A program made the position numbers and the translations under genes. The notes beneath the pieces are model-generated. The model saw nothing but the letters and a program-made list of their open reading frames with translations. It did not search any database and was not told the origin of the DNA. This document shows, piece after piece, positions 7,947-26,956 of a DNA stretch of 36,641 bases. Each line of letters starts with the position of its first letter. Position 1 is the stretch's first letter. Where the stretch lies: the IMG/VR virus record IMGVR_UViG_3300010883_000148, positions 1 through 36,641 of that record, one strand, 5' to 3'. This DNA is from a virus.

Positions 7947-8840
7947 ATGGCAGTAGCATTCGACGAAGACAATTCAAGCCCGCGCGGGTCGCTGCGAGAC
8001 GGCAAGCATATTGTCACCCGCACCGGGCTGACCGCGTGGGGCGATCTTGACCTGTTCGCCATTGAGCTGATGCCGCCGTCTACCGGGAAATACACGCCAG
8101 CCGTTGGCGCGGCGATGCCGGGAAACAACCAGCTTCGCGTCTCCGCGTTCTCGTTCGAGCCGCATGGAAACGCGGCGGTCACAGGTCAGACGTTCTCCGC
8201 ATTGAACAGCTACACGAAAGCCAAGTGGTCGATCACCTACGAGCGGCCGGAGTACGCGGTCGATGAGACCGAAGCGGCTGCGGACGGCGACCCGATTCCG
8301 TTCCTCAGCCATACATGGGAAGGGGGTGGTGAATTTCTGACGTTACCGGATGACGCGCTGCTGTGGGTCACGTCTGGAGGTGACCCGTCGAGTGCGACGT
8401 TCACCAGCTCGGTCGGCGACGAGGCGAACGCTGGTCTGTTCATCCCGTCCATCGAACATCAGGTCACGTGGTCGAGAGTTCCGTCGCCGCCGTTCGATGA
8501 CATCCGCGCACGAGTCGGCAAGGTCAATCACGCCAACATGATTCTCTCGACCGGCACCGCAGCACCGGAGACGCTGTTGTTCCTGAACCCGTCGATCAGC
8601 CGCGAGGTGATGAGCGACGGGGCGAGAGCGTGGAGCGTGTCGTATAAGTTCAGCGAACGGCGGGTGATCGCTGAAGACCAGACCGACCCCGGCGGCTGGA
8701 ACCACTTTTATCGAAACAATTCGGGGGCAAGCGGATTCTACCGGATGAAGCGGACGACGGTTGCGAACCCGCTGACCCGCGCCGACATCAAGGACGTCTA
8801 CGACAAAATCAGCTTCGCCGAACTATTCCCGACAGGTTGA
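7947..8840 (+). CDS. Tail protein downstream of tape measure (unknown; distal-tail candidate)
   Basis: 297 residues, beta-rich with many aromatic residues (GKYTPAVGAAMPGNNQLRVS, KWSITYERPEYAVDE, HQVTWSRVPSPPFDDIRARV, AWSVSYKFSERRVIA). Its last 60 residues contain WNHFYRNNSGASGFYRM, suggesting a binding surface. No enzyme motif. The position right behind the tape measure is normally filled by the distal tail protein, and the size is compatible, but I see no Dit signature. A GGGAGGG sequence at 7928-7934 precedes ATG 7947. It is followed after three bases by the next gene, so both are expressed together. Confidence 0.55.
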   Translation: MAVAFDEDNSSPRGSLRDGKHIVTRTGLTAWGDLDLFAIELMPPSTGKYTPAVGAAMPGNNQLRVSAFSFEPHGNAAVTGQTFSALNSYTKAKWSITYERPEYAVDETEAAADGDPIPFLSHTWEGGGEFLTLPDDALLWVTSGGDPSSATFTSSVGDEANAGLFIPSIEHQVTWSRVPSPPFDDIRARVGKVNHANMILSTGTAAPETLLFLNPSISREVMSDGARAWSVSYKFSERRVIAEDQTDPGGWNHFYRNNSGASGFYRMKRTTVANPLTRADIKDVYDKISFAELFPTG

Positions 8841-14584: not shown

Positions 14585-15028
14585 ATGAGCAAGCACGGCG
14601 GGCGACGAACGGGGGCGGGCCGAAAACCGAAGGTGGACGGTGTCGCTGAGTTTCTCGTCGAAGATCACAGCGACGAACGGGGCCGACTGCGGGTGCTCGA
14701 CAATCTGCCGTTCGCAGTCAAGCGGGCATTCGTTCTCGACAGAATCCCCGCGACACAGCGAGCCGGTCACGCGCATCGCACCTGCCATCAGTTGATCTTC
14801 TGCGCGTCGGGTTCGTTTCAAGCCGAGACGGAGCAGCGACGACCGTACTCGTCGTTCGTGCGGAAGACACTGAAGCAAGGCGACGCGATGGTGATCCCGG
14901 CGATGCACTGGTTGACGCTCGACAAGTTCAGCAAACCGGCGATCTGTCTCGTGCTTGCGAGCGAACCGTTCAACGAAGCGGAGATGATCCGCGACTGGGA
15001 TGAGTTTCTGAAACTGACAGGAGAATAG
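14585..15028 (+). CDS. WxcM/FdtA-like sugar 3,4-ketoisomerase cupin with GGRRTGAGRK N-terminus
   Basis: 147 residues. Residues 35-140 match the WxcM-like/FdtA/QdtA cupin: RVLDNLPFAVKRAFVLDRIP, then RAGHAHRTCHQLIFCASGSF (catalytic-type HAH at 62-64) and a MVIPAMHWLTLDKFS strand. These enzymes isomerise nucleotide-linked 4-keto-6-deoxyhexose to the 3-keto form before transamination. The first 16 residues, MSKHGGRRTGAGRKPK, are of the 'GGRRxGAGRK' type seen at the start of phage small terminases and other DNA-associated proteins and are not part of the usual enzyme. First gene of the glycan cluster; GGGG directly precedes the ATG. No 3-aminotransferase of the FdtB type is obvious nearby, so substrate and product remain open. 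Confidence 0.8.
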   Translation: MSKHGGRRTGAGRKPKVDGVAEFLVEDHSDERGRLRVLDNLPFAVKRAFVLDRIPATQRAGHAHRTCHQLIFCASGSFQAETEQRRPYSSFVRKTLKQGDAMVIPAMHWLTLDKFSKPAICLVLASEPFNEAEMIRDWDEFLKLTGE

Positions 15029-15029
15029 A

Positions 15030-15329
15030 ATGCCCCGCACCGCACGAGTGAAGTTCACCGCCAAGGAAGTTCTCGCCGCGCTCGGCTTACCGGCCAGCAC
15101 GAAGATGGTATCGGCTCAGGCTCAATACCAAGGGTCGCTGATTCTGACGGTCGAGCACGCTGAACTGATTGACCACGACGGCATGCGCCCGCCTGTCGTT
15201 GACCCGCACTTCGGTCACGCGGAAGATGCGTTCCGATGGGATCAGAAGCCGCCCGTGTTGATGGGCGAGGACGGCGCGGCACATCGGAAAGAATTGCAAG
15301 CTCGACGAGATAAGAATGAAGGGAAGTGA
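15030..15329 (+). CDS. Hypothetical protein of the glycan cluster (99 aa)
   Basis: Starts one base after the cupin stop and is clearly coupled to it. The protein begins MPRTARVKFTAKEVLAALGL, giving a basic start and a helix, then SAQAQYQGSLILTVEHAELI (two strands), a His/Asp-containing VVDPHFGHAEDAFRWDQKPP and a charged C-terminal helix. No motif recognised. Its coupling to an enzyme of sugar-nucleotide chemistry is the only functional hint. Confidence 0.55.
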   Translation: MPRTARVKFTAKEVLAALGLPASTKMVSAQAQYQGSLILTVEHAELIDHDGMRPPVVDPHFGHAEDAFRWDQKPPVLMGEDGAAHRKELQARRDKNEGK

Positions 15330-15335
15330 TAGTTT

Positions 15336-15445
15336 GGTTCTGTGGCGTAACTGGCAAACGCCCCCAGCATGCGGGAGTCTTAGCGGTTTGCATGACAGGT
15401 GACTGATAGCCGTGGAGAATGCAGGTTCGAGTCCTGCCAGAACCA
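15336..15445 (+). tRNA. tRNA-like gene, 110 nt, Leu-type D arm, abnormal anticodon region
   Basis: Acceptor strands GGTTCTG (15336-15342) and CAGAACC (15438-15444) pair perfectly, with discriminator A. D stem GCGT/ACGC (15345-15348, 15358-15361) has a loop with GG, in a context like bacterial tRNA-Leu (TGGCGTAACTGGCAAACGC). The T arm GCAGG-TTCGAGT-CCTGC is perfect. CCA is not encoded. The 59 bases between D and T arms contain no normal 5-bp/7-nt anticodon arm. Instead CATGCGGG (15368-15375) pairs with TTTGCATG (15387-15394, three G-U pairs) around an 11-base loop with CTTAG, which would give UAG (Leu) if T80-A82-G83 region were the anticodon loop. Isotype is uncertain; it may contain an insertion or be a tRNA mimic. 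Confidence 0.65.
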
Positions 15446-15473
15446 CTTGGCGTGATAAGAAAGAGGGGAAGAC

Positions 15474-16271
15474 ATGAAGCTGTCAATTGTCACCGGCACC
15501 CGCAACAGACCCAAGAGCTGGGCAAGGTTCCTTGCGTCGGCGAAGGCAGCGGCGACGGTCGAGACGGAGATCGTTGTCGTTGATGCGAGTACCGGCCCGC
15601 AGTGGAGCCAGTCGGGGTACGTGACAGAACGCGGGGTGCCGCCGTACCACTTTGACATTCGATTGATCCGAGAGGGGGAGACGCGTCTCGGCCCGATTCG
15701 CGGATACAATCTCGGCTACCGTGAGGCACGAGGCGAGTACGTTGTCTGGCTAAACGATGACTGCGAGCTGATACCCGGCTGGGACGCGACGGCCATCGAG
15801 TTCATGGAAGCCAACCCAGCCTGCGGCATGGGCGTCATCTATTTCAAAGACCATTTCGGCGAGTTGGGTGCAGGCGACGCGGACGGCGACCCGCTTGCGT
15901 TCGGTGCGAGCTACGTTAATCAGGTAATTTTCGGCATCGTATACGCCAACTTCGGCATCATGCGACGAGAGGTGGGCGAGTCGGTGGGCTGGCACAGCGA
16001 AGACATCGGGTTTATGTACGGCGGCGATACCGATTTTGCATTCAAGATGATCATGGCAGGGCATCAGGTTCTGGCGATCCCCGAATGCCGGGTGATCCAC
16101 TGGCGGCAGCGAGACGACGAACGAGCTGAGACAATCGAGCAGTATGGCTACCGTGCCGACCGTGCGAAGTTCGACGCCAAGTGGGTCAACCAGATCGGTC
16201 AGTTGAAAGCAATGCAGAAGCCGTGGGCACATCTTGTCGGCAAGCGGAGCATCGGGGAACCGAAGGAATGA
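15474..16271 (+). CDS. Glycosyltransferase family 2 (GT-A fold)
   Basis: 265 residues from ATG 15474, preceded by GAGGGGAA. It begins with the GT2 pattern MKLSIVTGTRNRPKSWARFL, then EIVVVDAST, GPIRGYNLGYREARGEYVVW and the metal/nucleotide motif LNDD at 93-96 followed by C.LIPGWD. YGGDTDFAFKMIMAGHQVLA near residue 190 corresponds to the acceptor-side acidic motif, and IPECRVIH.R.. to the terminal strand. These enzymes transfer a sugar from a nucleotide donor with inversion. It lies between the tRNA-like gene and a methyltransferase whose start overlaps its stop. Acceptor unknown. Confidence 0.9.
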   Translation: MKLSIVTGTRNRPKSWARFLASAKAAATVETEIVVVDASTGPQWSQSGYVTERGVPPYHFDIRLIREGETRLGPIRGYNLGYREARGEYVVWLNDDCELIPGWDATAIEFMEANPACGMGVIYFKDHFGELGAGDADGDPLAFGASYVNQVIFGIVYANFGIMRREVGESVGWHSEDIGFMYGGDTDFAFKMIMAGHQVLAIPECRVIHWRQRDDERAETIEQYGYRADRAKFDAKWVNQIGQLKAMQKPWAHLVGKRSIGEPKE

Positions 16272-17542
16272 GCGACAAATCCAAGCGATTGCACGTGGGC
16301 AGCGGCACGGTCTACCTGACCGACTACACCAACGTCGAACTACCGTCGCCGGTGTCCGGCGCGGCGCTGGCGACGGACAACCCGCCCGGCGTCAATAAGT
16401 GGGGAACGACGGGCGACAACTATTACGGCAAGCTCGGCAACGTCACAATCGAGATGCTCCAGAACGGCCCGCCGATGGATCACCGCGACCTCATCTGCGA
16501 CATCTACGGCGAGTTCGGCAACCTACCCGCTGACGACGGCACCATCGAGGAAGTTTTGTCGCGGCAAGTCTGGGAGCATATGTCGCTGACCGAGTGCGAT
16601 GCGGCGATGGTTGAGTGCCGCCGCGTGCTTGCCGACGGCGGCATCCTACGCATCGACGTGCCGGATCACGAGGAGTCGCTGCGGCTGTTTGGCGAGGACA
16701 CAAAATGCCGACCGTTCTTTCACCGGCACATCTTCGGCTCGCGGCGCAACGATGCGGCTCATCATATTATGGGCTGGACTAGGGCTGGACTGGCCGCGTT
16801 CGTCAAGCGGCACGGGTTTGAGTTCGTCGCGGAAGAACCGAACATCCACGTTTATCCCGCGTTCTGTATCCGGTTCAGCAAAGGCCCGCACGATGTGCCG
16901 CTGGACGGCGAGATGGTCCCGCCTCGACAGTGGTTCGCCGCGTGGGAGTATTGCGGCGAGACGCCCGGCGAGCCGCTGATTGTGCCTGACGATCACAAGG
17001 TGCTGGAAGTGGGATGCGGAACTCGCCCGTGGCCTCGTGCTGATTACTATCTGGACAACGACGAGAGCGCGCGAGATAGCCTGTCGATGGACGCGCACGG
17101 CCGGTTCACTAAGGGGGACGCCGCCGACCTGCCATATGAAGACGGCGAGTTCGACTACGTATTCGCGTCGCACATCATGGAGCACGTCGAAGACCCGCGA
17201 CAGGTTGCGGCGGAACTCTCGCGCGTCGCGTCGGCTGGCTGCGTCGTCTGTCCGTCGAACATGAAAGACGCTCTGTTCGGATTCCACGAGGACGACCACA
17301 AGTGGTGGGCGTTGCCGACCAGTGAGGCCAACACGCTGCGGCTGATTAAGATTGACCCGGCTTGGATCGCCGCGATATTCGATGAAGACATGAGCAAGGC
17401 GATGCATCAGATGTTACGATTAGAGCATCGCCGGTTCGGCAAGGAAGGCCGCAAGCTGAAGAAGTGGTTCAACCGCAGCGAGCCGTTGCTCGATGTCGTT
17501 GTCAATTGGGAAGGCGAGTTGAAAGTGGAGTTGCTGACATGA
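16268..17542 (+). CDS. Tandem (two-domain) SAM-dependent methyltransferase
   Basis: 424 residues from ATG 16268 (ATGA overlap). Both halves look like class I methyltransferases. The first (residues 1-230) has LHVGSGTVYL as motif I, then EEVLSRQVWEHMSLTECDAA and LADGGILRIDVPDHE. The second (about 240-424) has KVLEVGCGTRPWPRADYYLD, GDAADLPYEDGEFDYVFASH, IMEHVEDPRQ and a C-terminal basic helix. Such pairs occur in polysaccharide clusters and could modify two hydroxyls, or one domain could be structural. Motif I of the first half is weaker (VGSG for EVGCG), so it may be inactive. Flanked by glycosyltransferases. Confidence 0.8.
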   Translation: MSDKSKRLHVGSGTVYLTDYTNVELPSPVSGAALATDNPPGVNKWGTTGDNYYGKLGNVTIEMLQNGPPMDHRDLICDIYGEFGNLPADDGTIEEVLSRQVWEHMSLTECDAAMVECRRVLADGGILRIDVPDHEESLRLFGEDTKCRPFFHRHIFGSRRNDAAHHIMGWTRAGLAAFVKRHGFEFVAEEPNIHVYPAFCIRFSKGPHDVPLDGEMVPPRQWFAAWEYCGETPGEPLIVPDDHKVLEVGCGTRPWPRADYYLDNDESARDSLSMDAHGRFTKGDAADLPYEDGEFDYVFASHIMEHVEDPRQVAAELSRVASAGCVVCPSNMKDALFGFHEDDHKWWALPTSEANTLRLIKIDPAWIAAIFDEDMSKAMHQMLRLEHRRFGKEGRKLKKWFNRSEPLLDVVVNWEGELKVELLT

Positions 17543-17832
17543 AAAAGAGGTCTGTGAAAAAACCGACTGACGGACTCAAGGGGGCAGGCCAGAAACTGAC
17601 CGCCCTATCAAAACAGATCGAGTCTGTGCTCCGCGCAGAAGTGACAATCTTTGTCGCTGACGAGGAACGAAACATGCTGAATACTCTTGCGGCTGTTGTT
17701 CGGACATACAATTCAATGCAACCGGGCGACGACATCGAGACTGAGGATTTCCACAGGAGCATCCGAGTGATCCAACGGATCATCTCACACAGGATCGCTC
17801 AGCGAGTTGATGAAGAATTATTTGAAGGCTGA
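17539..17832 (+). CDS. Hypothetical helical protein (97 aa)
   Basis: Begins at ATG 17539 in an ATGA overlap with the methyltransferase gene. The protein has a basic start (MKKRSVKKPTDGLKGAGQKL) and then looks entirely helical (SKQIESVLRAEVTIFVADEE, NMLNTLAAVVRTYNSMQPGD, RSIRVIQRIISHRIAQRVDE). No domain recognised. Such small helical proteins in glycan clusters may be adaptors, but nothing supports a specific role. Eight bases separate it from the next gene. Confidence 0.55.
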   Translation: MKKRSVKKPTDGLKGAGQKLTALSKQIESVLRAEVTIFVADEERNMLNTLAAVVRTYNSMQPGDDIETEDFHRSIRVIQRIISHRIAQRVDEELFEG

Positions 17833-17839
17833 TGCGTCA

Positions 17840-18787
17840 ATGAAGCCCATCCGCTACTACGTCGTGCCGCGTGAAGACGTGGAGCACGTCACGCAAGGCA
17901 CGCCGTTGCCCGGTGACTTTCTCGCCAATTGGGAAGCGGATCGGCCGGGCGTGTTGAACAAATCGACGCAGGACATCTTCGCCGCGAACTCGCGCAGCGA
18001 GCGGCAGGTGTGGAAAGACTTCTCGCTGTTCCGGCGGGTGCGAGATCCCAAGCGGGCCGACGTCGTCGTCTGCCAGAACTGGCTGGAACTGTTCCATGCA
18101 AACCGGCTCGACCAAGCGGTGCGGCTGCTGTTGCGGCACGTCGTGCTGACGTATCCCGACAAGATCAGCATCTTCAGCTGGAACCACGACGCCGACAGTC
18201 GCTCGCTGACGCTGTTCGGTGACCTGCCCGACAACTCCATCATTCTTGATTACAACACGTCGAAGCCGTGGCCGCAGTCGCTTGTGCTGCCGTTCTGGAA
18301 CGTGGCGACAGGTCAGATGGACCGCGTCGGCGACCGACCGTGGTTCGCGGGATTCAACGGGTACGTCGGCTCGGTCGCGTTGCGGCAGCAGTTGCGGTTC
18401 GCAATCTACCGGCAACACGGCTACCACTGCTCGGACAAGCGGCTGGGCGAGGCAGATTATCTGAAGCAACTGAGCGGGTTCAAGTATGCGTTGTGTCCGC
18501 GTGGCGGCGGGCTGTCGAGCTATCGGTTTTATGAGGCGATCCAGTGCGGAGCGGTTCCCGTGCTGTTCGCCGACGACGCGGTGCTGCCGTTCCCTGATTT
18601 GGATTACAGCAAGTTTTCGATTCGGTTGCCCGAAGCGGCGACGTATGAATTCTGGAAGATCGACGACGTGCTGCGCGAGGCTGACTGGGAATCGCTGCAC
18701 CGCGAGGTGTTGGCCGTGCAGCAACAGTTCAGTCTGCTTGGCGTGCAAAAGGCGATACATGCACGGGTGACGGAGATGATGGCATGA
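17840..18787 (+). CDS. Exostosin-like (GT47-type) glycosyltransferase
   Basis: 315 residues from ATG 17840; an upstream in-frame Met at 17807 lies inside the preceding gene. The C-terminal half carries the exostosin signature: SGFKYALCPRGGG (212-224), then YRFYEAIQCGAVPVLFAD (228-245) and LPFPDLDYSKFSIRLPE. The N-terminal half has SWNHDADSRS and ILDYNTSKPWPQSLVLPFWN. Exostosin-type enzymes have a GT-B fold and add sugars such as GlcA, Xyl or Gal to polysaccharides. The start fits the tight operon, and the stop overlaps the next ATG by 4 bases. Good family match; donor sugar cannot be read from the sequence. Confidence 0.85.
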   Translation: MKPIRYYVVPREDVEHVTQGTPLPGDFLANWEADRPGVLNKSTQDIFAANSRSERQVWKDFSLFRRVRDPKRADVVVCQNWLELFHANRLDQAVRLLLRHVVLTYPDKISIFSWNHDADSRSLTLFGDLPDNSIILDYNTSKPWPQSLVLPFWNVATGQMDRVGDRPWFAGFNGYVGSVALRQQLRFAIYRQHGYHCSDKRLGEADYLKQLSGFKYALCPRGGGLSSYRFYEAIQCGAVPVLFADDAVLPFPDLDYSKFSIRLPEAATYEFWKIDDVLREADWESLHREVLAVQQQFSLLGVQKAIHARVTEMMA

Positions 18788-19767
18788 GAATCCTCTGGCT
18801 CGACGAGTGCTACCCCGACGCATGGGCCAAGCTGGGCCGGTCGGCACGGTACTGTCACGGCACGGCAGATTTCTGGGACGTGGTCATCGAGAAAGAAACG
18901 CCGCACCTGTCGCGGACTGCATATCACAACGAAGGCCCGACCGACACGTCGGACGGGCAGTACGACGTGATCTGCTCACAGAACGTCGGGCGATGGAACG
19001 CAGCAGCACTGGACGACAACGCGGCGAAGATCGCGTTCGTGTCGTATCGGGCCAGCGACGCCGACATGATCGGCTTCGACTGCGTCTTCACGTCGTTCCC
19101 GTGGCTGGTCGGTCACCTGAGAAAGCTCGGCCAGCGATGCGAGTACATGCCGCTGGCGTTCGGCGAGCCTATCGTCTGCCGGACACTGAACCCCGACGGC
19201 GACGACCGACCGCGACCGGAAGGTCAGATGGCTGCGAGCAACCACGAACGCGACCTGCCGCTGACGTTCGTCGGCGGGCTGGGTCACTCGCACATCTGGG
19301 AGCGTGGCGAGAAGTGCTTGACCGCTGTGGCCGAAGCGTTCGACGAGTTCAAGTGGTGGGGCTACGCGGGTCCGCATTTGAGCGACGCGCTGCGGGCATC
19401 GCATCAAGGCGAGGCGTGGGGTTACGACTATTTCAACATACTGTTGCGGTCAGAGATTACGATCAACCGGCACGGCGAGATCGCCCGCGGCTTCGCAAAC
19501 AACATGCGGCTATTCGAGGCGACAGGTTGCGGCGCGTGTATGATCACCGAGCACTCGCCGAACATCGGCGATTTCTTCAAGCCGAGCGTCGAGTGCCTGA
19601 CGTACCAGTCGCCCGACGATCTGGTGTATGCTATCCGGTCGATACAAGGCGTCGATGGCGCGTCGCGGATAATCGCCGCGCGCGGGCACCGTCGGTGCCT
19701 TGCCGATCACTGTTACGAGAACCGCTTGCCGCAATTCATCGACGTGTTGGAGTCACTGGATGATTAA
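18784..19767 (+). CDS. CgeB-like GT-B glycosyltransferase
   Basis: 327 residues. N-terminal half: MRILWLDECYPDAWAKLGR, DVICSQNVGRW, then FDCVFTSFPWLVGHLRKLGQ and RCEYMPLAFGEP. C-terminal half: LTFVGGLGHSH, INRHGEIARGFANNMRLFEA, TGCGACMITEHSPNIGDFF and CLTYQSPDDLVYAI. This combination matches the CgeB/'glycosyl transferases group 1' proteins, where the E of 'RLFEA.GCG.....' contacts the donor nucleotide. Cytoplasmic; it probably extends the same oligosaccharide as its neighbours. The stop overlaps the following small gene. Confidence 0.8.
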   Translation: MRILWLDECYPDAWAKLGRSARYCHGTADFWDVVIEKETPHLSRTAYHNEGPTDTSDGQYDVICSQNVGRWNAAALDDNAAKIAFVSYRASDADMIGFDCVFTSFPWLVGHLRKLGQRCEYMPLAFGEPIVCRTLNPDGDDRPRPEGQMAASNHERDLPLTFVGGLGHSHIWERGEKCLTAVAEAFDEFKWWGYAGPHLSDALRASHQGEAWGYDYFNILLRSEITINRHGEIARGFANNMRLFEATGCGACMITEHSPNIGDFFKPSVECLTYQSPDDLVYAIRSIQGVDGASRIIAARGHRRCLADHCYENRLPQFIDVLESLDD

Positions 19768-19969
19768 ACGAAACGAGCGACGTCGGGCCAGCGACATGAA
19801 GCGGTGGAACCTGCGCCAGCGGTCTGCGTATATGCAGCGAGCGGGAATATCGCCGAATACATTGGCACCGACGGTGAAGCAACTGCGACACACCGATGAC
19901 GCGGGCACAGAATACGTCGATCCACAATGGGACAATACGAGATGGGCTGGAGTAAAAGTCGGCGTCTGA
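19760..19969 (+). CDS. Small basic protein directly upstream of the radical SAM gene
   Basis: 69 residues from ATG 19760, overlapping the glycosyltransferase stop by 8 bases and sharing a TGATG overlap with the radical SAM start. It begins MIKRNERRRASDMKRWNLRQ, continues with RSAYMQRAGISPNTLAPTVK and ends RWAGVKVGV. The N-terminal half is strongly basic and helical. Its tight coupling to a radical SAM/SPASM protein raises the possibility of a substrate or partner peptide. It lacks the Cys-rich or repeated core of familiar RiPP precursors, so this is only a suggestion. Confidence 0.55.
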   Translation: MIKRNERRRASDMKRWNLRQRSAYMQRAGISPNTLAPTVKQLRHTDDAGTEYVDPQWDNTRWAGVKVGV

Positions 19970-20694
19970 TGCGATTCCCGCAGTGGATCACCATCGACTG
20001 CCACAACTACTGCGACGCGAGTTGCGGCTATTGTGTGTACGCCGAGCTGGCGGCTGACAATGAGTACCCGCAGTCGTTCATGGACTTCGGCCTGTTCGAG
20101 CGGCTCGTCGCCGAGATGGTTGAGCACGCCGACGAGATTGATTCGACGCGGTTCGGGAACATCGCAGAGCACTTTATGACGCCGAAGCACTGGTTTTACA
20201 CCGAGCACTTCCTCGCCAGCGGATTGACGATGTATATCACCAGCAACATGACGCACATCGACGCGGCGACGATGGACCGGCTCGACGAGCTGGGATGGGA
20301 CCACGGCGAACTGGTGGCTCACGTCCAGCCGGGCATGGGTGTCGATTACGAGAACCAACTCCTGAATCTGAAAGAGGCACAGCGGCGGTGGGGCGACAGG
20401 GTGCAGCACTGCGTGATCGACCCGCCGCGAGGCTGGGCGGATTATGATGCGTCGATCCCGTTTCGCAAGGCGACACGCTGCGACGCGGGGCGACCTGACC
20501 ACACGATGATCATCGGATTCGACGGCCGAGTGCAGTTGTGCTGCCAAGACGTTCGGCAGTCAGTCATCGTCGGCGACTTGAACAACGAGACGATCAGCGA
20601 GGTATGGAACTGCGAGAAGGTCGCCGACGCGCGGCGAGCGTTGTCGAACGGTGAGATGAAACTCTGCAACAATTGCGAGTGGGGTGCGACGTGA
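19969..20694 (+). CDS. Radical SAM protein with SPASM-like C-terminus
   Basis: From ATG 19969 the product has 241 residues. FPQWITIDCHNYC leads into the cluster motif CDASCGYC (Cys15, 19, 22; C-x3-C-x2-C), which binds a 4Fe-4S cluster and SAM. The C-terminal part has IIGFDGRVQLCCQDVRQS, VGDLNNETISEVWNCE and LCNNCEW, the layout of a SPASM/twitch auxiliary cluster domain. Alternative starts at 19927 and 19942 exist but overlap the upstream gene and lack a Shine-Dalgarno. In glycan clusters such enzymes may perform sugar dehydration or epimerisation, or peptide modification. The substrate cannot be deduced. Confidence 0.88.
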   Translation: MRFPQWITIDCHNYCDASCGYCVYAELAADNEYPQSFMDFGLFERLVAEMVEHADEIDSTRFGNIAEHFMTPKHWFYTEHFLASGLTMYITSNMTHIDAATMDRLDELGWDHGELVAHVQPGMGVDYENQLLNLKEAQRRWGDRVQHCVIDPPRGWADYDASIPFRKATRCDAGRPDHTMIIGFDGRVQLCCQDVRQSVIVGDLNNETISEVWNCEKVADARRALSNGEMKLCNNCEWGAT

Positions 20695-20736
20695 CGATCA
20701 CCGACGCGAGTCCTGATCTGATCAAGGAAGTGTGCG

Positions 20737-21279
20737 ATGGAGTCAACTGAGACGTGGAGCGAGAAGCGGAAGCAGATCGCCGAACACATCGAGCGGCACG
20801 GCGTTGACCGGCACCGCGAGTGGGGCATCGTCCGACAACTGGTCAACACAGACTACAAGCCGCACAAAGCGTTCCTGCGATTTTATGAAGAACACATCGG
20901 GCCGATCTCGGCGGTTGACTCCATCGTCGAAGCGGGGCCGGGCATCGGTACGCTGGCGTCGGTAATTTACGCGAGCGGATTCAAAGGAAAGTACACGTCG
21001 TTCGACTTCCCCGAAATGCAAACGATTCAGCAGTACGCATTGGGCGGATACGACGTGGAGTATGTCAACACGGTCGATGAGCTGCCGAAGGCTGCCGGGC
21101 TGTTCATCGCGTCGTTCTCCGTCGAGGAGATGCCCGCCGAGTTGCGGTTCAACCTGATGGATCGGGCCAGCGGGTACGGCAGCCATCTGCTACAATTTAA
21201 CGGACCGATTCGCATTTTCTTTTCTCTCGTTGATCGGCACAAAGGCTGGTTGAACAGCGGCAACAAGTGGGCGAGATAA
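20737..21279 (+). CDS. SAM-dependent methyltransferase-like protein (180 aa)
   Basis: Starts at ATG 20737 after AAGGAAG (20724-20730). N-terminal helices (SEKRKQIAEHIERHGVDRHR, HKAFLRFYEEHIG) precede SIVEAGPGIGTLASVIYASG, which is motif I (E-x-G-x-G-x-G), then YTSFDFPEMQ. The overall shape fits a small Rossmann methyltransferase of the 'putative sugar O-methyltransferase' type. It is short and ends soon after the fourth strand, so it may be truncated relative to family members of about 230-300 residues. The stop overlaps the next ATG by one base. Confidence 0.7.
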   Translation: MESTETWSEKRKQIAEHIERHGVDRHREWGIVRQLVNTDYKPHKAFLRFYEEHIGPISAVDSIVEAGPGIGTLASVIYASGFKGKYTSFDFPEMQTIQQYALGGYDVEYVNTVDELPKAAGLFIASFSVEEMPAELRFNLMDRASGYGSHLLQFNGPIRIFFSLVDRHKGWLNSGNKWAR

Positions 21280-21992
21280 TGAGCGACGACACCTGTATTC
21301 TGATTCCATCTTGCGACGCATTCTCCGATGCTCATCCGCCATTCATGGCGTGCATGGAAAAGTATTGGCCGTATCGCCACTGGCCGATGCGCGGGCTGTC
21401 GGAGTACGGCTGGGGCGAACATCCGCTGGCCGTCGGCGACGACATGGGCTGGTGCAATAACTTGATTCACGGGCTGGAGCAGATCGACGAGGATTATGTG
21501 CTGATGTTTCTCGAAGATATGTTCATTTGCGAGCCGCCGGATCAGGCCGCGTTGAACAAGGCTGCGATGCTGGTGCGGGACGTTGACGTTGGTGCGATTC
21601 GCGTCGGGCCGGGTGCGGAAGAATGCGAGGCGACGGATGACCCCGGTGTCGGGCGAATGTTCCGGTCGAGCAACTATCGCATCGGCACATCGCCGACAAT
21701 CTGGAGCAAAGAATTCCTGCTGTTTGTGCTTCGCGGGCCGCGCATCAATACGGCGTGGGACTTTGAGATCGTCGGCACCAAGCAGTCGGTCGCACCGAGC
21801 GGCAAGGCGATACTGAAGATGACGCAGATGCCGCCGCCTGTGCAGGTTCTCTACACGGCGATCACTCGGGGACGCTGGGAAGAAGGGGCCTTGAATTGGC
21901 TCCGTCGGGTTGATATAGAAGTTGAAACCGACAGGCCGGTGAAGGGGTACGAAGTGGGGCAACGATGGCCGAAGGTGGAGAGCGACGAATGA
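21279..21992 (+). CDS. Glycosyltransferase-like protein with LEDMF acidic motif
   Basis: 237 residues from ATG 21279 (TAATG overlap). N-terminus CILIPSCDAFSDAHPPFMAC, then a hydrophobic strand with an acidic turn, DYVLMFLEDMFICEPPDQ, similar to the 'F.EDD' nucleotide/metal site of GT-A enzymes. VGAIRVGPGAEECE and YRIGTSPTIWSKEFLLFVL follow, ending in a helical region. It resembles the 'glycosyltransferase family protein' group that recognises sugar acceptors in LPS-type clusters. Family-level evidence is moderate. It overlaps the next gene by 4 bases. Confidence 0.65.
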   Translation: MSDDTCILIPSCDAFSDAHPPFMACMEKYWPYRHWPMRGLSEYGWGEHPLAVGDDMGWCNNLIHGLEQIDEDYVLMFLEDMFICEPPDQAALNKAAMLVRDVDVGAIRVGPGAEECEATDDPGVGRMFRSSNYRIGTSPTIWSKEFLLFVLRGPRINTAWDFEIVGTKQSVAPSGKAILKMTQMPPPVQVLYTAITRGRWEEGALNWLRRVDIEVETDRPVKGYEVGQRWPKVESDE

Positions 21993-23200
21993 AGCGACGA
22001 ATCAGGCTGGGGCATGTGGCGGTAGGCGAGGTCGAGCGCAACCTGCTGGCCGACGTGATCGCACAGCAGCGGCTGTCCTATGGGCCGAAGACCCGCGAGT
22101 TGGAGCAACGCATCGCGGCATTGCACAACGTCAAGCACGCGGTCTTCATGGCGAGTGGGACGTGCGCGTTGCAGGTCGGGCTGGAATCGATGAAAGAGAT
22201 CCACGACTGGCCGGACGACGGCGAGGTCATCATCCCGGCAACGACGTTCATCGCCACGATGTCGGCTGTGATTCACGCGGGACTGCGCCCGGTGCTGTGC
22301 GACGTTGAGGCCGACACGTTCGGGATGGATTCCGCCCGCATCCGCGAACACGTCACCGACAAAACGGTTGCCGTGCTGCCGGTGCATCTGCTCGGTCGAG
22401 CGTGCAAGCTGGGCGACATTATGCGGGTGACACGGGGCGGCACGGGAGAGCGGTACATACCCACCGCTGAAGACTGCTGCGAGTCTGTTGGCGTAGGAAT
22501 TGACGTCGTGGCGGGTAGGATAATGGTCGGCGAGCAAGCCGCGTTCGCGGCAATCTCGACCTACGTTTGCCATCACCTGTCAACTGGCGTCGGCGGTGCG
22601 GTGCTGACGAACAACGATGAGCTGGCGACGATCTGCCGGTCACTGATTCAGCACGGGCGTGACCCGTCGTATCTGTCGCTCGACGACGACTCGCCCGAGA
22701 CGGTTGACGCGAAGTATCGCTTCGTGCGTTGGGGACATAGCTACCGCGGTTCGGAGCTGCAGGCCGCGCTGGGTCTGGCTGGCGTCAAGTGCATCGACGG
22801 ATGGAAGTCGCTACGGAGACGAGTCGAGAAGCAACTGAACGAGCGGTTGCGTGGCCTACCGCTGTTGACGCTGCCGAGTTTCCACAAAGGCGACTCGCCG
22901 CTATTCTATCCGTTCGTCGTCGCTGGCGGCTGCGAAGATTTGGTGCGACACTTCGAGCAGCAAGGCATCGAGACGCGGCCGATGATGCCGCTGCTGAATC
23001 AGTCGCCGGTGATTGATTATATCCGCGATGACTTTCATCGCGAGAAGGTTGCAATGACGCAAGCATACTGGCGGAAAATGAAATGGCCCGTCGCGTCCCG
23101 CTTGCTCGACGAGGCATTTATTATCGGCTGCAATCCCGGCATGAGCGACGACGACATTGATTATATTGGCGAGGTGGCGAGGAACTTTTTGGAAAGGTAA
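21989..23200 (+). CDS. DegT/StrS-family PLP enzyme of the ColD/E1 (His-for-Lys) 3-dehydratase type
   Basis: 403 residues from ATG 21989. It shows the DegT/DnrJ/EryC1/StrS fold: LSYGPKTRELEQRIA, MASGTCALQVGLES, EVIIPATTFIAT and a PLP-binding TAEDCCESVGVG (D162). Where aminotransferases have the Schiff-base lysine ('..TKN...GEGG'), this protein has CHHLSTGVGGAVLTNND, with His195-His196. The same replacement marks ColD (GDP-4-keto-6-deoxymannose 3-dehydratase) and E1/RfbH. This points to C3 deoxygenation of a 4-keto-6-deoxy sugar nucleotide. With the GDP-mannose dehydratase and the fucose-synthase-like gene downstream it suggests GDP-colitose. Length fits ColD (about 390). Aminotransferase activity is unlikely without Lys. 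Confidence 0.82.
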   Translation: MKRRIRLGHVAVGEVERNLLADVIAQQRLSYGPKTRELEQRIAALHNVKHAVFMASGTCALQVGLESMKEIHDWPDDGEVIIPATTFIATMSAVIHAGLRPVLCDVEADTFGMDSARIREHVTDKTVAVLPVHLLGRACKLGDIMRVTRGGTGERYIPTAEDCCESVGVGIDVVAGRIMVGEQAAFAAISTYVCHHLSTGVGGAVLTNNDELATICRSLIQHGRDPSYLSLDDDSPETVDAKYRFVRWGHSYRGSELQAALGLAGVKCIDGWKSLRRRVEKQLNERLRGLPLLTLPSFHKGDSPLFYPFVVAGGCEDLVRHFEQQGIETRPMMPLLNQSPVIDYIRDDFHREKVAMTQAYWRKMKWPVASRLLDEAFIIGCNPGMSDDDIDYIGEVARNFLER

Positions 23201-23205
23201 TCGAG

Positions 23206-23868
23206 ATGAGCGACGAACTATGGACCGACCCGTGGTGCGACCGTGACGTGGCCGAGCAGCAGATGGCGGGCGTCAAGGCCGACATGGCGTCGTGGCTGGG
23301 CGGTCAACCGCACGCGGCGTTTGACCCGTATTGCGCGGTGCTGTTCCACACCGACGACGTGCACAGCGTTCTCGAAGCGGGCTGCGGCTGCGGGCAGTAT
23401 GCCGAGGTGACGCAGGCCAGCGGGCAGGTTGCCGATGACGTGTCGTTCACCGGCATCGACGCATCGGCGTATGCGATCAATCTGGCGCGAAAGCACTACG
23501 GGGCGTCGGGCATATACTATCAGTGCAACGCGGACAGCATCGCCGAGGATGACGGGGCGTTCGACCTTGTCGTCAGCGGCTCGCTGATCGGCCACGTTGC
23601 CGACTGGCAGGCGGTGGTCGGCGAGCTGTGCCGCGTGTCGAAGCGGTACGTGATGCTGCACCGGGTTCAGTGTCACGGTGCCGATATGATGTCTCGCGTC
23701 AAGACCAAGACAGCCTACGGCGTCGAAATGAAAGAGCGGTCATTCGACGGGGCTGAACTGATCATGTCGGTCGAGACGCGATTCAACATGCGGCACGTAT
23801 TCTCGACGACGTGGAGTAAGACCCGCCGAAGTTGGCAATTGTCGTGTCTGTTTGAGAAGGTGGGCTGA
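23206..23868 (+). CDS. Class I SAM-dependent methyltransferase
   Basis: 220 residues from ATG 23206, after GGAAAGG. Motif I is SVLEAGCGCGQYAEVTQASG, followed by FTGIDASAYAINLARKHYG (acidic residue at strand two), CNADSIAEDDGAFDLVVSGS and ELCRVSKRYVMLHRVQCHG. This is a complete Methyltransf_11/12-like core. The acceptor is probably a sugar, given neighbouring glycosyltransferases, though a protein or small molecule is possible. Its last base overlaps the next start by one. Confidence 0.82.
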   Translation: MSDELWTDPWCDRDVAEQQMAGVKADMASWLGGQPHAAFDPYCAVLFHTDDVHSVLEAGCGCGQYAEVTQASGQVADDVSFTGIDASAYAINLARKHYGASGIYYQCNADSIAEDDGAFDLVVSGSLIGHVADWQAVVGELCRVSKRYVMLHRVQCHGADMMSRVKTKTAYGVEMKERSFDGAELIMSVETRFNMRHVFSTTWSKTRRSWQLSCLFEKVG

Positions 23869-24698
23869 TGCAATACGTAACGCACTTCGATTCAGCCTAC
23901 CGTGCCCACGGCATGGCGTTGATCGCGTCTATGCAGGAATACTGCGAGCCGTTCGAGCTGACGGTCTTGGCACTCGACCACAAGTGCTATCGGTATCTGC
24001 TGGATCAGAATCTCGGCGACAACGTCCGCATCATCAGCCTGTCGTCGTTCGAGTTGAAGTCGAGGCATCCGCTGCACGTCATCCGGCAACAGAAGACGTG
24101 GAAAGAATACTGCTGGCTGTTGGAGCCGCTGCTGTGTCAGTCGATGCTGGAAGACATGGGCGTCGATGCGTTTGTGTATGTTGACGCCGACTCGTTTTTC
24201 TTTGGCACGCCGTCGTTCCCGAAAGGTGCCGCCGTCGCGTTGTCTCCGCACAACTTCCCCGACGGGCAGACGCATCGCGAGGCGACGGTCGGGCGGTTCA
24301 ACTTCGGCTTCGGGTACTTCGCACGCTGGCAGGCGACGATTGATCTGGTAAGCTGCTGGGTCGATGACACGCTGGAACGATGCGATGGCAACAGCGCAGG
24401 CCATCAGATGAGTCTCGACGACTGGCCCGACGTGATTGGCACGCTGTTCACCGAGCTGCCGCCGACGATCAACGTCGGCCCGTGGCAGCACGCGGAGATC
24501 ACGGGTGACCGGCCGACGATAGGCGGCGAGCCGCTGGTGCATATGCACTTCCATGAGCATCGACGGAGACTAGTCGGCGGCAAAAATCCGGTGATGCTCA
24601 AGGGGCAGCGATGGAACCGGACTGACTACCCTATTCACCCTGAGACTTTGAGCAGCGTGTATCTTCCTTACGAGCGAGTTTTGGAACGGTATATTTAG
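23868..24698 (+). CDS. Nucleotide-sugar transferase (GT8-like, DxD)
   Basis: 276 residues. YVTHFDSAYRAHGMALIASM is followed by FELTVLALDHKCYRYLLDQ, IRQQKTWKEYCWLLEPLLCQ and VYVDADSFFFGTP (103-115), whose DAD is the metal/donor site of GT-A enzymes. HNFPDGQTHREATVGRFNFG and GYFAR then form the acceptor region. The 'K....Y.wtl.P.l....l' and 'YlDaD..f' pair identifies this group of sugar transferases found in capsule and LPS clusters. It lies directly before the GDP-mannose dehydratase gene. Confidence 0.82.
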   Translation: MQYVTHFDSAYRAHGMALIASMQEYCEPFELTVLALDHKCYRYLLDQNLGDNVRIISLSSFELKSRHPLHVIRQQKTWKEYCWLLEPLLCQSMLEDMGVDAFVYVDADSFFFGTPSFPKGAAVALSPHNFPDGQTHREATVGRFNFGFGYFARWQATIDLVSCWVDDTLERCDGNSAGHQMSLDDWPDVIGTLFTELPPTINVGPWQHAEITGDRPTIGGEPLVHMHFHEHRRRLVGGKNPVMLKGQRWNRTDYPIHPETLSSVYLPYERVLERYI

Positions 24699-24699
24699 A

Positions 24700-25653
24700 A
24701 TGAAAACCGCACTACTCACCGGCATCACCGGCCAAGACGGCAGCTACATCGCCGAGCTATTGCTGTCGAAAGGCTACACGGTTCACGGCATCGTTCGCCG
24801 CTCGTCAACGCTGGCGGGGCAGTGGCGATTGGCGGAGTGTATCGACCGGATCACGCTGCACTTCGGCGACATCATCGAAGGCGTGCGGATGGCGCAACTG
24901 GTGCGGGACATCCAGCCCGACGAGGTCTATCATCTGGCCGCTCAGTCGCACGTTGCCGTCTCGTTCGATCAGGCGTCGTACACGATGCAGTCGATTGTCG
25001 GCGGGACGATCAACATGCTCGAAGCGGTGCGGCACTTCTGCCCGACGGCCCGTTATTATCAGGCGTCATCGTCGGAGATGTACGGCTCGGCACCGCCGCC
25101 GCAGAGTGAGGACACGCCGATGCAGCCGCGGTCGCCGTACGCGTGCGCGAAGCTGGCCGCCTATCACTCGGTGCGGAATTACCGCGAAGCGTATGGGCTG
25201 CACGCATCGAACGGCATCCTGTTCAACCACGAGTCACGACGACGCGGCGAGACGTTCGTCACGCAGAAGATTGTCGGAGCGGCGAAGGCGATCAAGGCGG
25301 GTACGCAGGACAAGCTGATTCTCGGCGACTGCTCGACGATGCGGGACTGGGGCCATGCGGCGGATTACGTGCGGGCGATGTGGTTGATGTTGCAGCAGGA
25401 CGCGGGCGACGATTACGTTGTGGCGACGGGCGAGCAGTATTCGATACAGGAGTTTTTGCATCAAGTGTTTTGCTGCGTTCTCGGTGACGACTGGAGATTC
25501 ACGCATTCTGGATGCGTCACGTTCGACGACCCAGCGTTCACGCGACCGCTCGACGTTCCGTCGCTGTGCGGCGATGCGTCGAAGGCCCGGCGCGTGCTGG
25601 GCTGGGAACCGACGATTGACTTTGCCGGGTTGGTTGATGGGATGGTACGATGA
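24700..25653 (+). CDS. gmd: GDP-mannose 4,6-dehydratase
   Basis: 317 residues. Extended SDR enzyme with TGITGQDGSYIAELLLSKGY (NADP Rossmann motif, 7-26), VRRSS, VYHLAAQSHVAVSF, SSSEMYGS (123-130), the YxxxK pair SPYACAK (Tyr147, Lys151) and NHESRRRGETFVTQKI (176-191). These segments are diagnostic for GMD, which converts GDP-D-mannose to GDP-4-keto-6-deoxy-D-mannose. Length is slightly short (family about 345), with a compact C-terminus. No mannose-1-phosphate guanylyltransferase is in the window, so GDP-mannose must come from the host. The product feeds the fucose-synthase-like gene at 25997 and probably the ColD-like gene at 21989. Confidence 0.95.
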   Translation: MKTALLTGITGQDGSYIAELLLSKGYTVHGIVRRSSTLAGQWRLAECIDRITLHFGDIIEGVRMAQLVRDIQPDEVYHLAAQSHVAVSFDQASYTMQSIVGGTINMLEAVRHFCPTARYYQASSSEMYGSAPPPQSEDTPMQPRSPYACAKLAAYHSVRNYREAYGLHASNGILFNHESRRRGETFVTQKIVGAAKAIKAGTQDKLILGDCSTMRDWGHAADYVRAMWLMLQQDAGDDYVVATGEQYSIQEFLHQVFCCVLGDDWRFTHSGCVTFDDPAFTRPLDVPSLCGDASKARRVLGWEPTIDFAGLVDGMVR

Positions 25654-25856
25654 CCCGTAAATTCCATCCGTTCGACTGGCACATTCCAGTCGGGCAAATA
25701 AATTGCGTTCGGCCGGGCGACACCGTGTTGGTCGAGGGAATAAGGCACAGGGTCAACACGACTGACGGCAACAATAAGCCGGTTGACATGACGCCGCTCA
25801 ACCCGTTCACCGACACACTGGATCTGATTGCCGAGGTGTGCGATGAAGCTGTCTGA
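25650..25856 (+). CDS. Small hypothetical protein (68 aa)
   Basis: Starts at ATG 25650 (ATGA overlap with gmd) and overlaps the next small ORF by 14 bases. It reads KFHPFDWHIPVGQINCVRPG, then DTVLVEGIRHRVNTTDGNNK and a C-terminal FTDTLDLIAEVCDEAV. The beta-rich start is reminiscent of small SH3-like proteins, but no family is recognised. Retained because of its tight packing inside the operon. Confidence 0.5.
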   Translation: MTRKFHPFDWHIPVGQINCVRPGDTVLVEGIRHRVNTTDGNNKPVDMTPLNPFTDTLDLIAEVCDEAV

Positions 25857-26007
25857 CTGGTTTGAAACTTGCGACATGATCGTCAGGCGAGAGCAGGTAT
25901 CCAAGGCGCTTCGTAAAATAGAAAAGATGGGCGGCTGGGACGCGGCAAAGAAGTGCTACGACTTGAAACAACTACTCAGCGAAATTGAGAGCGACGATGA
26001 ATCTTGA
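25843..26007 (+). CDS. Small helical hypothetical protein (54 aa)
   Basis: A short ORF from ATG 25843 to TGA 26005-26007 encodes MKLSDWFETCDMIVRREQVS, then a basic helix KALRKIEKMGGWDAAKKCYD and LKQLLSEIESDDES. It overlaps the previous gene by 14 bases and the next by 11, the same packing seen throughout the operon, which favours it as a real gene. No motif. Without it there would be a 140-base gap in an otherwise gapless operon. Confidence 0.45.
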   Translation: MKLSDWFETCDMIVRREQVSKALRKIEKMGGWDAAKKCYDLKQLLSEIESDDES

Positions 26008-26956
26008 CGGCAAGCGAGTTCTGATTACCGGCGGGCATGGGTTCCTCGGCGGCTACGTCCGCGATGCGATGGCGCGATGCGGGGCCGACTACATCTCGCC
26101 GCCGCGCCGCGAATACGACTTGACCAAGTCGCACGACACCCGACTGCTGATAAAAAACATCAAGCCGGAAATCGTGATCCATCTGGCGGCTGATGTCGGC
26201 GGAATTCAGTACAACAAAGCCAACCCCGCGTCGGTGATTTATAATAATCTGGCGATGGGTCTGAACGTCATCGAGGAATGCCGCAGAGCTGACGTCGCGA
26301 AGCTGGTGTTCGTCAGCACCGTATGTGCGTACCCGAAACATTGCCCGACACCGTTCGTCGAGTCGGCGATGTTCGACGGCTACCCAGAGGAAACAAACGC
26401 ACCCTACGGGATCGCCAAGCGGGCACTCGGCGTGATGCTTGATGCGTATCACCGGCAGCACGGCATGGCGTCGGCGCATCTGGTGCTGGCGAATCTGTAC
26501 GGCCCCGGCGATAACTTCGACCCTGCGTCGTCGCATGTGATCCCCGGTATGATTTGTAAGATGGCGGCTGCGCGTGCCTCTGGGGCACGCACAGCGACGC
26601 TGTGGGGGTCTGGTCGTCCAAGCCGAGAGTTCCTCTACGTCGCTGACGCTGCTTCTGCGGTGCTGCGGGCGGCCGAGTCGATTGGCGACCCGTCCCCGAT
26701 CAACATCGGCACAGGGTGCGAAACGACAATCAGCCTACTGGCTGACATCATCGCGGGCGAAACGGACTTCGACGGCGAGATCAACTGGGACACGTCGATG
26801 CCCGACGGTCAGCCGAAGCGGCGGCTGGACGTGACACAGGCTAAGGCTCGCATGCAATGGGAGTCATCGACTCCGCTGGTTGACGGCATCGCCAATACGG
26901 TGCAGTGGTTTCTCGCGAACCGCGAGACGCTCGGTCAGCGTCACGTCACGCAGTGA
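25997..26956 (+). CDS. GDP-L-fucose synthase-like epimerase/reductase (or GDP-colitose synthase)
   Basis: 319 residues from ATG 25997 (TTG 25985 is in frame but lies in the upstream ORF). Signature parts of the GFS family: VLITGGHGFLG (8-18), HLAADVGGIQYNKANPASVI (62-81), VFVSTVCAYPK with Ser107 and Cys110, PYGIAK (Tyr137, Lys141) and the SHVIPGMI segment with His180. Cys and His here correspond to the C3/C5 epimerisation acid-base pair, and Ser-Tyr-Lys to reduction. It acts on GDP-4-keto-6-deoxymannose (fucose) or, after ColD-type deoxygenation, on GDP-4-keto-3,6-dideoxymannose (colitose). Both routes share this fold, so I leave the symbol blank. End of the rightward glycan cluster; its 3' end overlaps a convergent gene. 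Confidence 0.9.
   Translation: MNLDGKRVLITGGHGFLGGYVRDAMARCGADYISPPRREYDLTKSHDTRLLIKNIKPEIVIHLAADVGGIQYNKANPASVIYNNLAMGLNVIEECRRADVAKLVFVSTVCAYPKHCPTPFVESAMFDGYPEETNAPYGIAKRALGVMLDAYHRQHGMASAHLVLANLYGPGDNFDPASSHVIPGMICKMAAARASGARTATLWGSGRPSREFLYVADAASAVLRAAESIGDPSPINIGTGCETTISLLADIIAGETDFDGEINWDTSMPDGQPKRRLDVTQAKARMQWESSTPLVDGIANTVQWFLANRETLGQRHVTQ

Follow-up and report, generated by a model that had tools for sequence, protein, structure and literature searches.

Here we describe a phage tRNA-like element whose acceptor, D and T arms are complete but in which the place of the anticodon arm and variable loop is taken by 59 nt of other sequence. The element lies at positions 15336-15445 on the + strand (110 nt, one copy) of the window, the 36.6-kb virus record (36,641 nt, G+C ~59%) that was analysed here in full. 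Among the explanations considered, we tentatively favour an acquired, non-decoding tRNA-like RNA that would act as a mimic or sponge of the tRNA body, a function we infer from the parts of the molecule that are kept. Other phages carry a covarying family of anticodon-less tRNA-like RNAs, which is a stronger object than the orphan element of the window.

Genomic setting and tRNA body

The left part of the window holds connector (head-tail), neck and tape-measure genes, followed by genes for glycan modification. The contig is siphovirus-like, and its large glycan-modification cluster (14585-26956) encodes an FdtA-like protein, glycosyltransferases (family 2, GT47 and Glyco_trans_1_2 type), methyltransferases, a SPASM protein, a DegT aminotransferase and sugar dehydratase/epimerases (a GDP-mannose dehydratase-like protein and an epimerase). 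Matches of the tape measure protein spread over many unrelated phages (~30-37% identity) and point to no host, and searches via the neighbouring proteins found no relatives of the phage or the locus. The tRNA-like element is intergenic, between an open reading frame (ORF) of 99 aa and a glycosyltransferase gene, all on the same strand (+), with the following features:

15030..15329, + strand: upstream ORF, 99 aa, without known family (ORF list, domain and relative searches)
15301..15326, + strand: left copy of a direct repeat, in the 3'-terminal part of the upstream ORF (21/26 identities with the right copy)
15336..15342, + strand: 5' strand of the acceptor stem, GGTTCTG (7/7 Watson-Crick with 15438-15444; P 0.99-1.0)
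15345..15361, + strand: D arm, stem GCGT/ACGC, loop AACTGGCAA with the G18G19 signature (4/4 pairs, P 0.91-0.97)
15362..15420, + strand: middle in place of anticodon arm and variable loop (59 nt, no standard anticodon arm)
15363..15375, + strand: predicted mini-hairpin CCC-AGCATGC-GGG at the anticodon-arm position (P 0.93, single-sequence prediction)
15378..15418, + strand: predicted long variable-arm-like hairpin (most pairs P 0.9-0.99, end pairs 0.65-0.85)
15421..15437, + strand: T arm GCAGG-TTCGAGT-CCTGC (5/5 pairs, P 0.98-0.99; Rfam tRNA match of 14.4 bits)
15438..15445, + strand: 3' strand of the acceptor stem, CAGAACC, and discriminator A (paired with 15336-15342)
15446..15471, + strand: right copy of the direct repeat, holding the ribosome-binding site of the downstream gene (21/26 versus the left copy)
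15474..16271, + strand: downstream glycosyltransferase family 2 gene (PF00535, E 2.7e-14)

The first-pass annotation had called the acceptor, D and T arms perfect, and so they are: all pairs are Watson-Crick, with predicted pairing probabilities of 0.91-1.0 across the three stems, and the 16/16 intact body stem pairs are accompanied by intact D- and T-loop signature bases, with no erosion of the arms. The geometry of the D arm is standard, with U8 and G9 preceding a 4-bp stem and a loop (AACUGGCAA) that holds GG. The element shares with canonical class I/II tRNAs (RF00005) the 7-bp acceptor stem, the D arm with GG, the T loop TTCGAGT, the 8-9 spacing and the position of the discriminator; it differs from them in its 59-nt middle, which lacks a 5-bp/7-nt anticodon arm. 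CTT stands directly 3' of the discriminator A, so no CCA is encoded. A structural descriptor of such a body matched once in the window, on the + strand only, and none of 150 one-strand shuffles (first-order Markov) gave a match; the body arrangement is not due to chance.

Standard tools pass over this body. ARAGORN with default settings found no tRNA in the window, and Rfam found nothing there at the gathering score; the Rfam tRNA model (RF00005) covers the T arm only, at 14.4 bits versus a gathering score of 29. Weak Rfam matches of the element to YrlA, plastid-ycf2 and eiav are at chance level. The Y RNA-like YrlA (RF02553), a non-decoding bacterial RNA, has a tRNA-like module with which the element shares a tRNA-like elbow, but the match stops at 12.6 bits (E 8.5), where the gathering score is 69.

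The middle of the element

The gap from the D arm to the T stem is ~22 nt in a class I tRNA and 59 nt here, exactly the length annotated beforehand for the bases that stand in for anticodon arm and variable loop. A search of this middle for a contiguous 5-bp/7-nt anticodon arm with U33 returned only two weak 4-of-5 matches; the combination of a 5-bp anticodon stem, a 7-nt loop, U33 and purine 37 is absent from the element, and no tool called a normal tRNA with a long variable arm and a standard anticodon. A simple insertion into a tRNA, one of the origins initially proposed, does not account for the middle either, since a canonical anticodon arm does not emerge from the removal of any single block. 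A deletion combined with one substitution would yield such an arm, a result that is uninformative because most shuffled sequences reach the same.

The minimum free energy (MFE) fold of the middle consists of the 3-bp CCC/GGG mini-hairpin and the long hairpin at 15378-15418. The 8-bp hairpin that had been proposed instead (CATGCGGG/TTTGCATG) does have the required complementarity, but its pairing probability is 0.001 and its fold lies 10 kcal/mol above the MFE, and the extra CAG/CTG hairpin proposed alongside it reaches a pairing probability of only ~0.2. The observation of a tRNA body is real in its main point, and the proposed hairpin is wrong. The stability of the middle is unremarkable, with 43% of shuffles folding at least as well, and no specific fold of it is therefore demonstrated.

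A flanking repeat and a candidate insertion

The element is flanked immediately by a 26-nt direct repeat whose copies differ at 5/26 positions. Nowhere else in the window does the left copy have a match of at least 18/26; five shuffled windows gave top matches of 16-18, and the observed repeat match was reached in 0/200 shuffles of the flanks. When the flanks are joined in register, 145 nt drop out and the neighbouring ORFs come to share an ATGA stop/start overlap: the upstream ORF then ends DKKEGKT-stop, its TGA overlapping the ATG of the glycosyltransferase. Such an overlap is a common gene arrangement in phages. Because of the flanking repeat and of the overlap produced by the joined flanks, it looks as though the tRNA-like body entered as an added module of ~145 bp, with duplication of the gene junction.

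Provided that the repeat dates from this putative insertion, there is a hint of selection on the tRNA body, since the repeat has diverged at 5/26 positions and every stem pair of the body is still intact; the comparison is crude, because the repeat copies lie within sequence that codes for protein or binds ribosomes. No relatives of this singleton element emerged through neighbouring proteins. Its exact D arm has no relative among 2.9 million viral contigs, and it shows no recognisable promoter or terminator of its own. On another viral contig (L016:7900-8040 region), copies of a 12-nt direct repeat (11/12 identical; 0/200 shuffles) stand on either side of a tRNA-like gene, which suggests that this gene, like that of the window, may also have been inserted.

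Odd tRNA-like genes in other phages

We scanned viral contigs with the window element's D-loop and T-arm pattern and an over-long gap, which returned chance and tandem-tRNA matches as well as several odd phage genes. Perfect acceptor and T stems around a 50-80-nt middle that lacks a standard anticodon arm were found in further unrelated phages, in L016, in L017/L024/L026/L027/L028, in L030, in L035 and in others, while L033 has one near-standard arm (CTGG-GTCGTAA-CCAG, 4/5 pairs). Several of these contigs hold another tRNA-like family, with a 77-83-nt middle (L028:7678-7813 and 8421-8550; also L017, L024, L026 and L027), which occurs twice in one phage and whose acceptor pairing reaches 11-12 bp in the copies read. 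The D arm most resembling that of the window belongs to a tRNA-like gene at L030:82-202, downstream of which (~480-560) stands another unusual tRNA-like gene whose leader, GTGACAGCC-GGGAAAGA, is similar. A phage tRNA at L092:8981-9082, Ala(UGC) by eye, has a 32-nt variable region, an imperfect T stem and a normal anticodon arm (ACGTA-CTTGCAA-TACGT, read by eye), and is flanked by an inverted repeat (ATCGATAACAA/TTGTTATCGAT). A D-loop/T-arm pattern gave 3 matches in bacterial genomes, none of them a comparable tRNA-like gene by eye. The Vibrio phage annotations 'tRNA-Und' and 'tRNA-OTHER' refer to genes of normal length (73-75 nt) and are a different matter.

A conserved anticodon-less family

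Starting from seven loci (L002-L008), we assembled a family (L002-L008 and L055-L087, e.g. L004:4525-4633 and L072:604-720, both + strand) on 40 phage contigs of freshwater type, comprising 36 complete copies and 15 distinct sequences. The copies have a sigma70-like promoter (TTGACA/TATAAT-like) just upstream, an encoded CCA and a nearly invariant D region with a T-bulged D arm. At the anticodon position stands a CUCC/GGAG-type hairpin, capped by UUCG or GAAA in several members, and 3' of it a variable-arm-like hairpin whose loop is short and A/U-rich; given the tetraloop caps at the anticodon position, the family therefore has no anticodon. Compensatory changes occur at 16 pairs, and the acceptor, T, variable-arm and anticodon-position helices covary, with a covariation score of 0.422 (shuffled, 0.142; slid, no more than 0.095); the D stem was set one column off in the structure used, which lowers the D-helix count only.

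Rfam gave no match at the gathering score in the seven family loci scanned (L002-L008), ARAGORN called nothing in the four members scanned whole and no such gene among the matches listed for the others, and annotated phages yielded only short matches to the T arm and acceptor end. In the family contigs inspected, there is a divergent radical-SAM gene on the upstream side, and translation initiation factor IF-1 is encoded a short way downstream (L004:5700-5918, PF01176, E 1.5e-20 in L004; matching ORFs in L002, L003, L005, L007 and L008); in L004 a gene for a MazE-like small protein precedes the IF-1 gene. In the hairpin at the anticodon position, many members carry UAGUA...GAAC across the internal loop, a possible resemblance to a bulged-G (sarcin-ricin type) motif, and the family's invariant ACCUCCU may likewise resemble the anti-Shine-Dalgarno sequence.

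The window element is not a member of this family, scoring 24.4 bits with its covariance model, where ordinary tRNAs score 20-26 and members 113-134. The two have in common a tRNA body without an anticodon arm and a middle of similar length (57-69 nt in the measured subset of the family versus 62 in the window element), whereas the own promoter, the encoded CCA, the T-bulged D arm and the specific covarying helices are features of the family only; the window element has neither the upstream promoter nor the CCA. What the two share is a design, in which the body is kept and the anticodon arm replaced, and not membership.

Alternative explanations

The main rival, which we regard as quite possible, is that the element is a tRNA pseudogene, now without function, in which insertion, deletion and drift have garbled the anticodon arm and variable loop. 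A singleton without conserved relatives, promoter or CCA and with no significant fold in its middle is what this would leave behind, and a block deletion with one substitution does give a canonical arm, although shuffled sequences usually give one too. A decaying gene sits less well with 16/16 body stem pairs and D- and T-loop signatures still intact beside a flanking repeat that has diverged at 5/26 positions, or with a middle that no single insertion explains.

It is improbable, in our view, that the element is a working decoding tRNA of odd shape, with a 3-bp anticodon stem and a 41-nt variable arm. This would match the predicted fold of the middle, where the mini-hairpin (P 0.93) has the loop AGCAUGC and a would-be anticodon CAU, and the irregular phage tRNA of L092 shows a normal arm combined with a 32-nt variable region. 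Position 33 of tRNAs is, however, near-universally U and the anticodon stem 5 bp, against G33 and 3 bp here, and the fold is no better than those of shuffles.

We see little prospect, likewise, that the element is simply a processing signal, at which RNase P would cut a polycistronic mRNA and for which the middle would be irrelevant. The intergenic position in a run of same-strand genes, the lack of an own promoter or terminator and the right repeat copy, which gives the downstream gene its own ribosome-binding site, would all suit such a role, and RNase P is known to recognise tRNA-like substrates through their structure (PMC12710915, PMC6186949). The best-conserved comparison family, on the other hand, has its own promoter and an encoded CCA, both superfluous for a cut site.

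An intron-containing tRNA gene is strongly disfavoured. With introns allowed, ARAGORN calls a tRNA-Arg(gcg) with a 14-nt intron, but the call is worthless because 196/200 constructs with shuffled middles are called as well; no single-block deletion yields a canonical arm, no bulge-helix-bulge arrangement is seen by eye and 59 nt is too short for a group I intron. We reject this reading on the shuffle control and the deletion scan. To chance or an assembly artefact we give almost no weight, as the element, although known from one metagenomic contig only, is matched in 0 of 150 shuffles and lies internally between intact ORFs, with a flanking junction that makes sense.

A candidate mimic of the tRNA body

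RNase P, the CCA-adding enzyme and the proteins that bind the acceptor or elbow read the parts of a tRNA that are kept here, and the ribosome reads the part that is missing; for this reason an acquired, non-decoding tRNA-like RNA ranks first among the readings. The explanation draws its support from perfect arms around a non-tRNA middle, the exclusion of chance, the signs of an added module and the similar RNAs of other phages. A tRNA mimic had also been offered in the first-pass annotation; it comes out ahead on grounds other than those given there, namely because the arms are intact, the anticodon arm is absent and cannot be restored, the element is module-like and other phages demonstrably keep anticodon-less tRNA-like RNAs. 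The suggested decoy for anticodon nucleases in particular fits poorly, since it is precisely the anticodon loop that is missing; a decoy for a reader of the acceptor, the CCA end or the elbow would fit better. Against the favoured explanation stand the singleton status of the element, its unremarkable middle, its lack of promoter, terminator and CCA, and its position outside the conserved family.

In the sequence of events we envisage, ~145 bp, comprising the tRNA body and a copy of the gene junction, would have been inserted between two genes of the glycan-modification operon. The element would be co-transcribed with the operon, its transcript folding into an acceptor/D/T body recognisable to RNase P, the CCA-adding enzyme and elbow- or acceptor-binding proteins, and would then be excised by tRNA-processing enzymes. 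A host enzyme would presumably add the CCA, and in the last and least certain step the RNA might serve as a mimic or sponge directed at a host factor that recognises the body of a tRNA and not its anticodon.

Phage tRNAs that evade host defence have been described, among them the tRNA-Lys of T5 acting against PARIS (PMC11455837) and tRNAs of mycobacteriophages (PMC10264068). These share with the window element a phage-encoded tRNA body and a plausible counter-defence role, but they are decoding tRNAs with point changes in the anticodon stem-loop or loop (PMC11455837, PMC10264068), whereas the window element has no decodable loop; with known counter-defence resting on decoding tRNAs changed in the anticodon region, an anticodon-nuclease decoy does not suggest itself here. 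Soil metagenomes have yielded irregular tRNAs with extra stems, the allo-tRNAs and five-stem-junction tRNAs (Mukai et al. 2017, reviewed in PMC7609411), and some such irregular tRNA-like genes are unusable in E. coli translation (PMC7609411). The anticodons of allo-tRNAs are readable and their acceptor domains are 8/4 or 9/3, in contrast to the 7/5 domain of the window element, which has no readable anticodon. We found no description of anticodon-less phage tRNA-like genes in the open-licence literature.

More broadly, phages might repeatedly evolve non-decoding RNAs that keep the tRNA body but have structural hairpins in place of the anticodon arm, all of them mimics of that body in infected cells and the window element an independently acquired member beside the conserved family with its neighbouring IF-1 gene, a generalisation we regard as rather unlikely. 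tRNA mimicry may nonetheless be a recurring and overlooked viral trick: tRNA finders list genes whose anticodon can be read, which leaves anticodon-less phage RNAs invisible to annotation, and such RNAs were missed here by ARAGORN, by Rfam and in the annotated phage collection. The existence of a covarying anticodon-less family makes the reading as a tRNA mimic worth testing, and that conserved family offers a well-supported object on which to test the idea of body mimicry. If functional, phage tRNA mimics of this kind would target host readers of the acceptor end or elbow, possibly RNase P, EF-Tu, synthetases or enzymes acting on the tRNA 3' end by modification or cleavage, and the tRNA arms race would extend beyond the anticodon loop.
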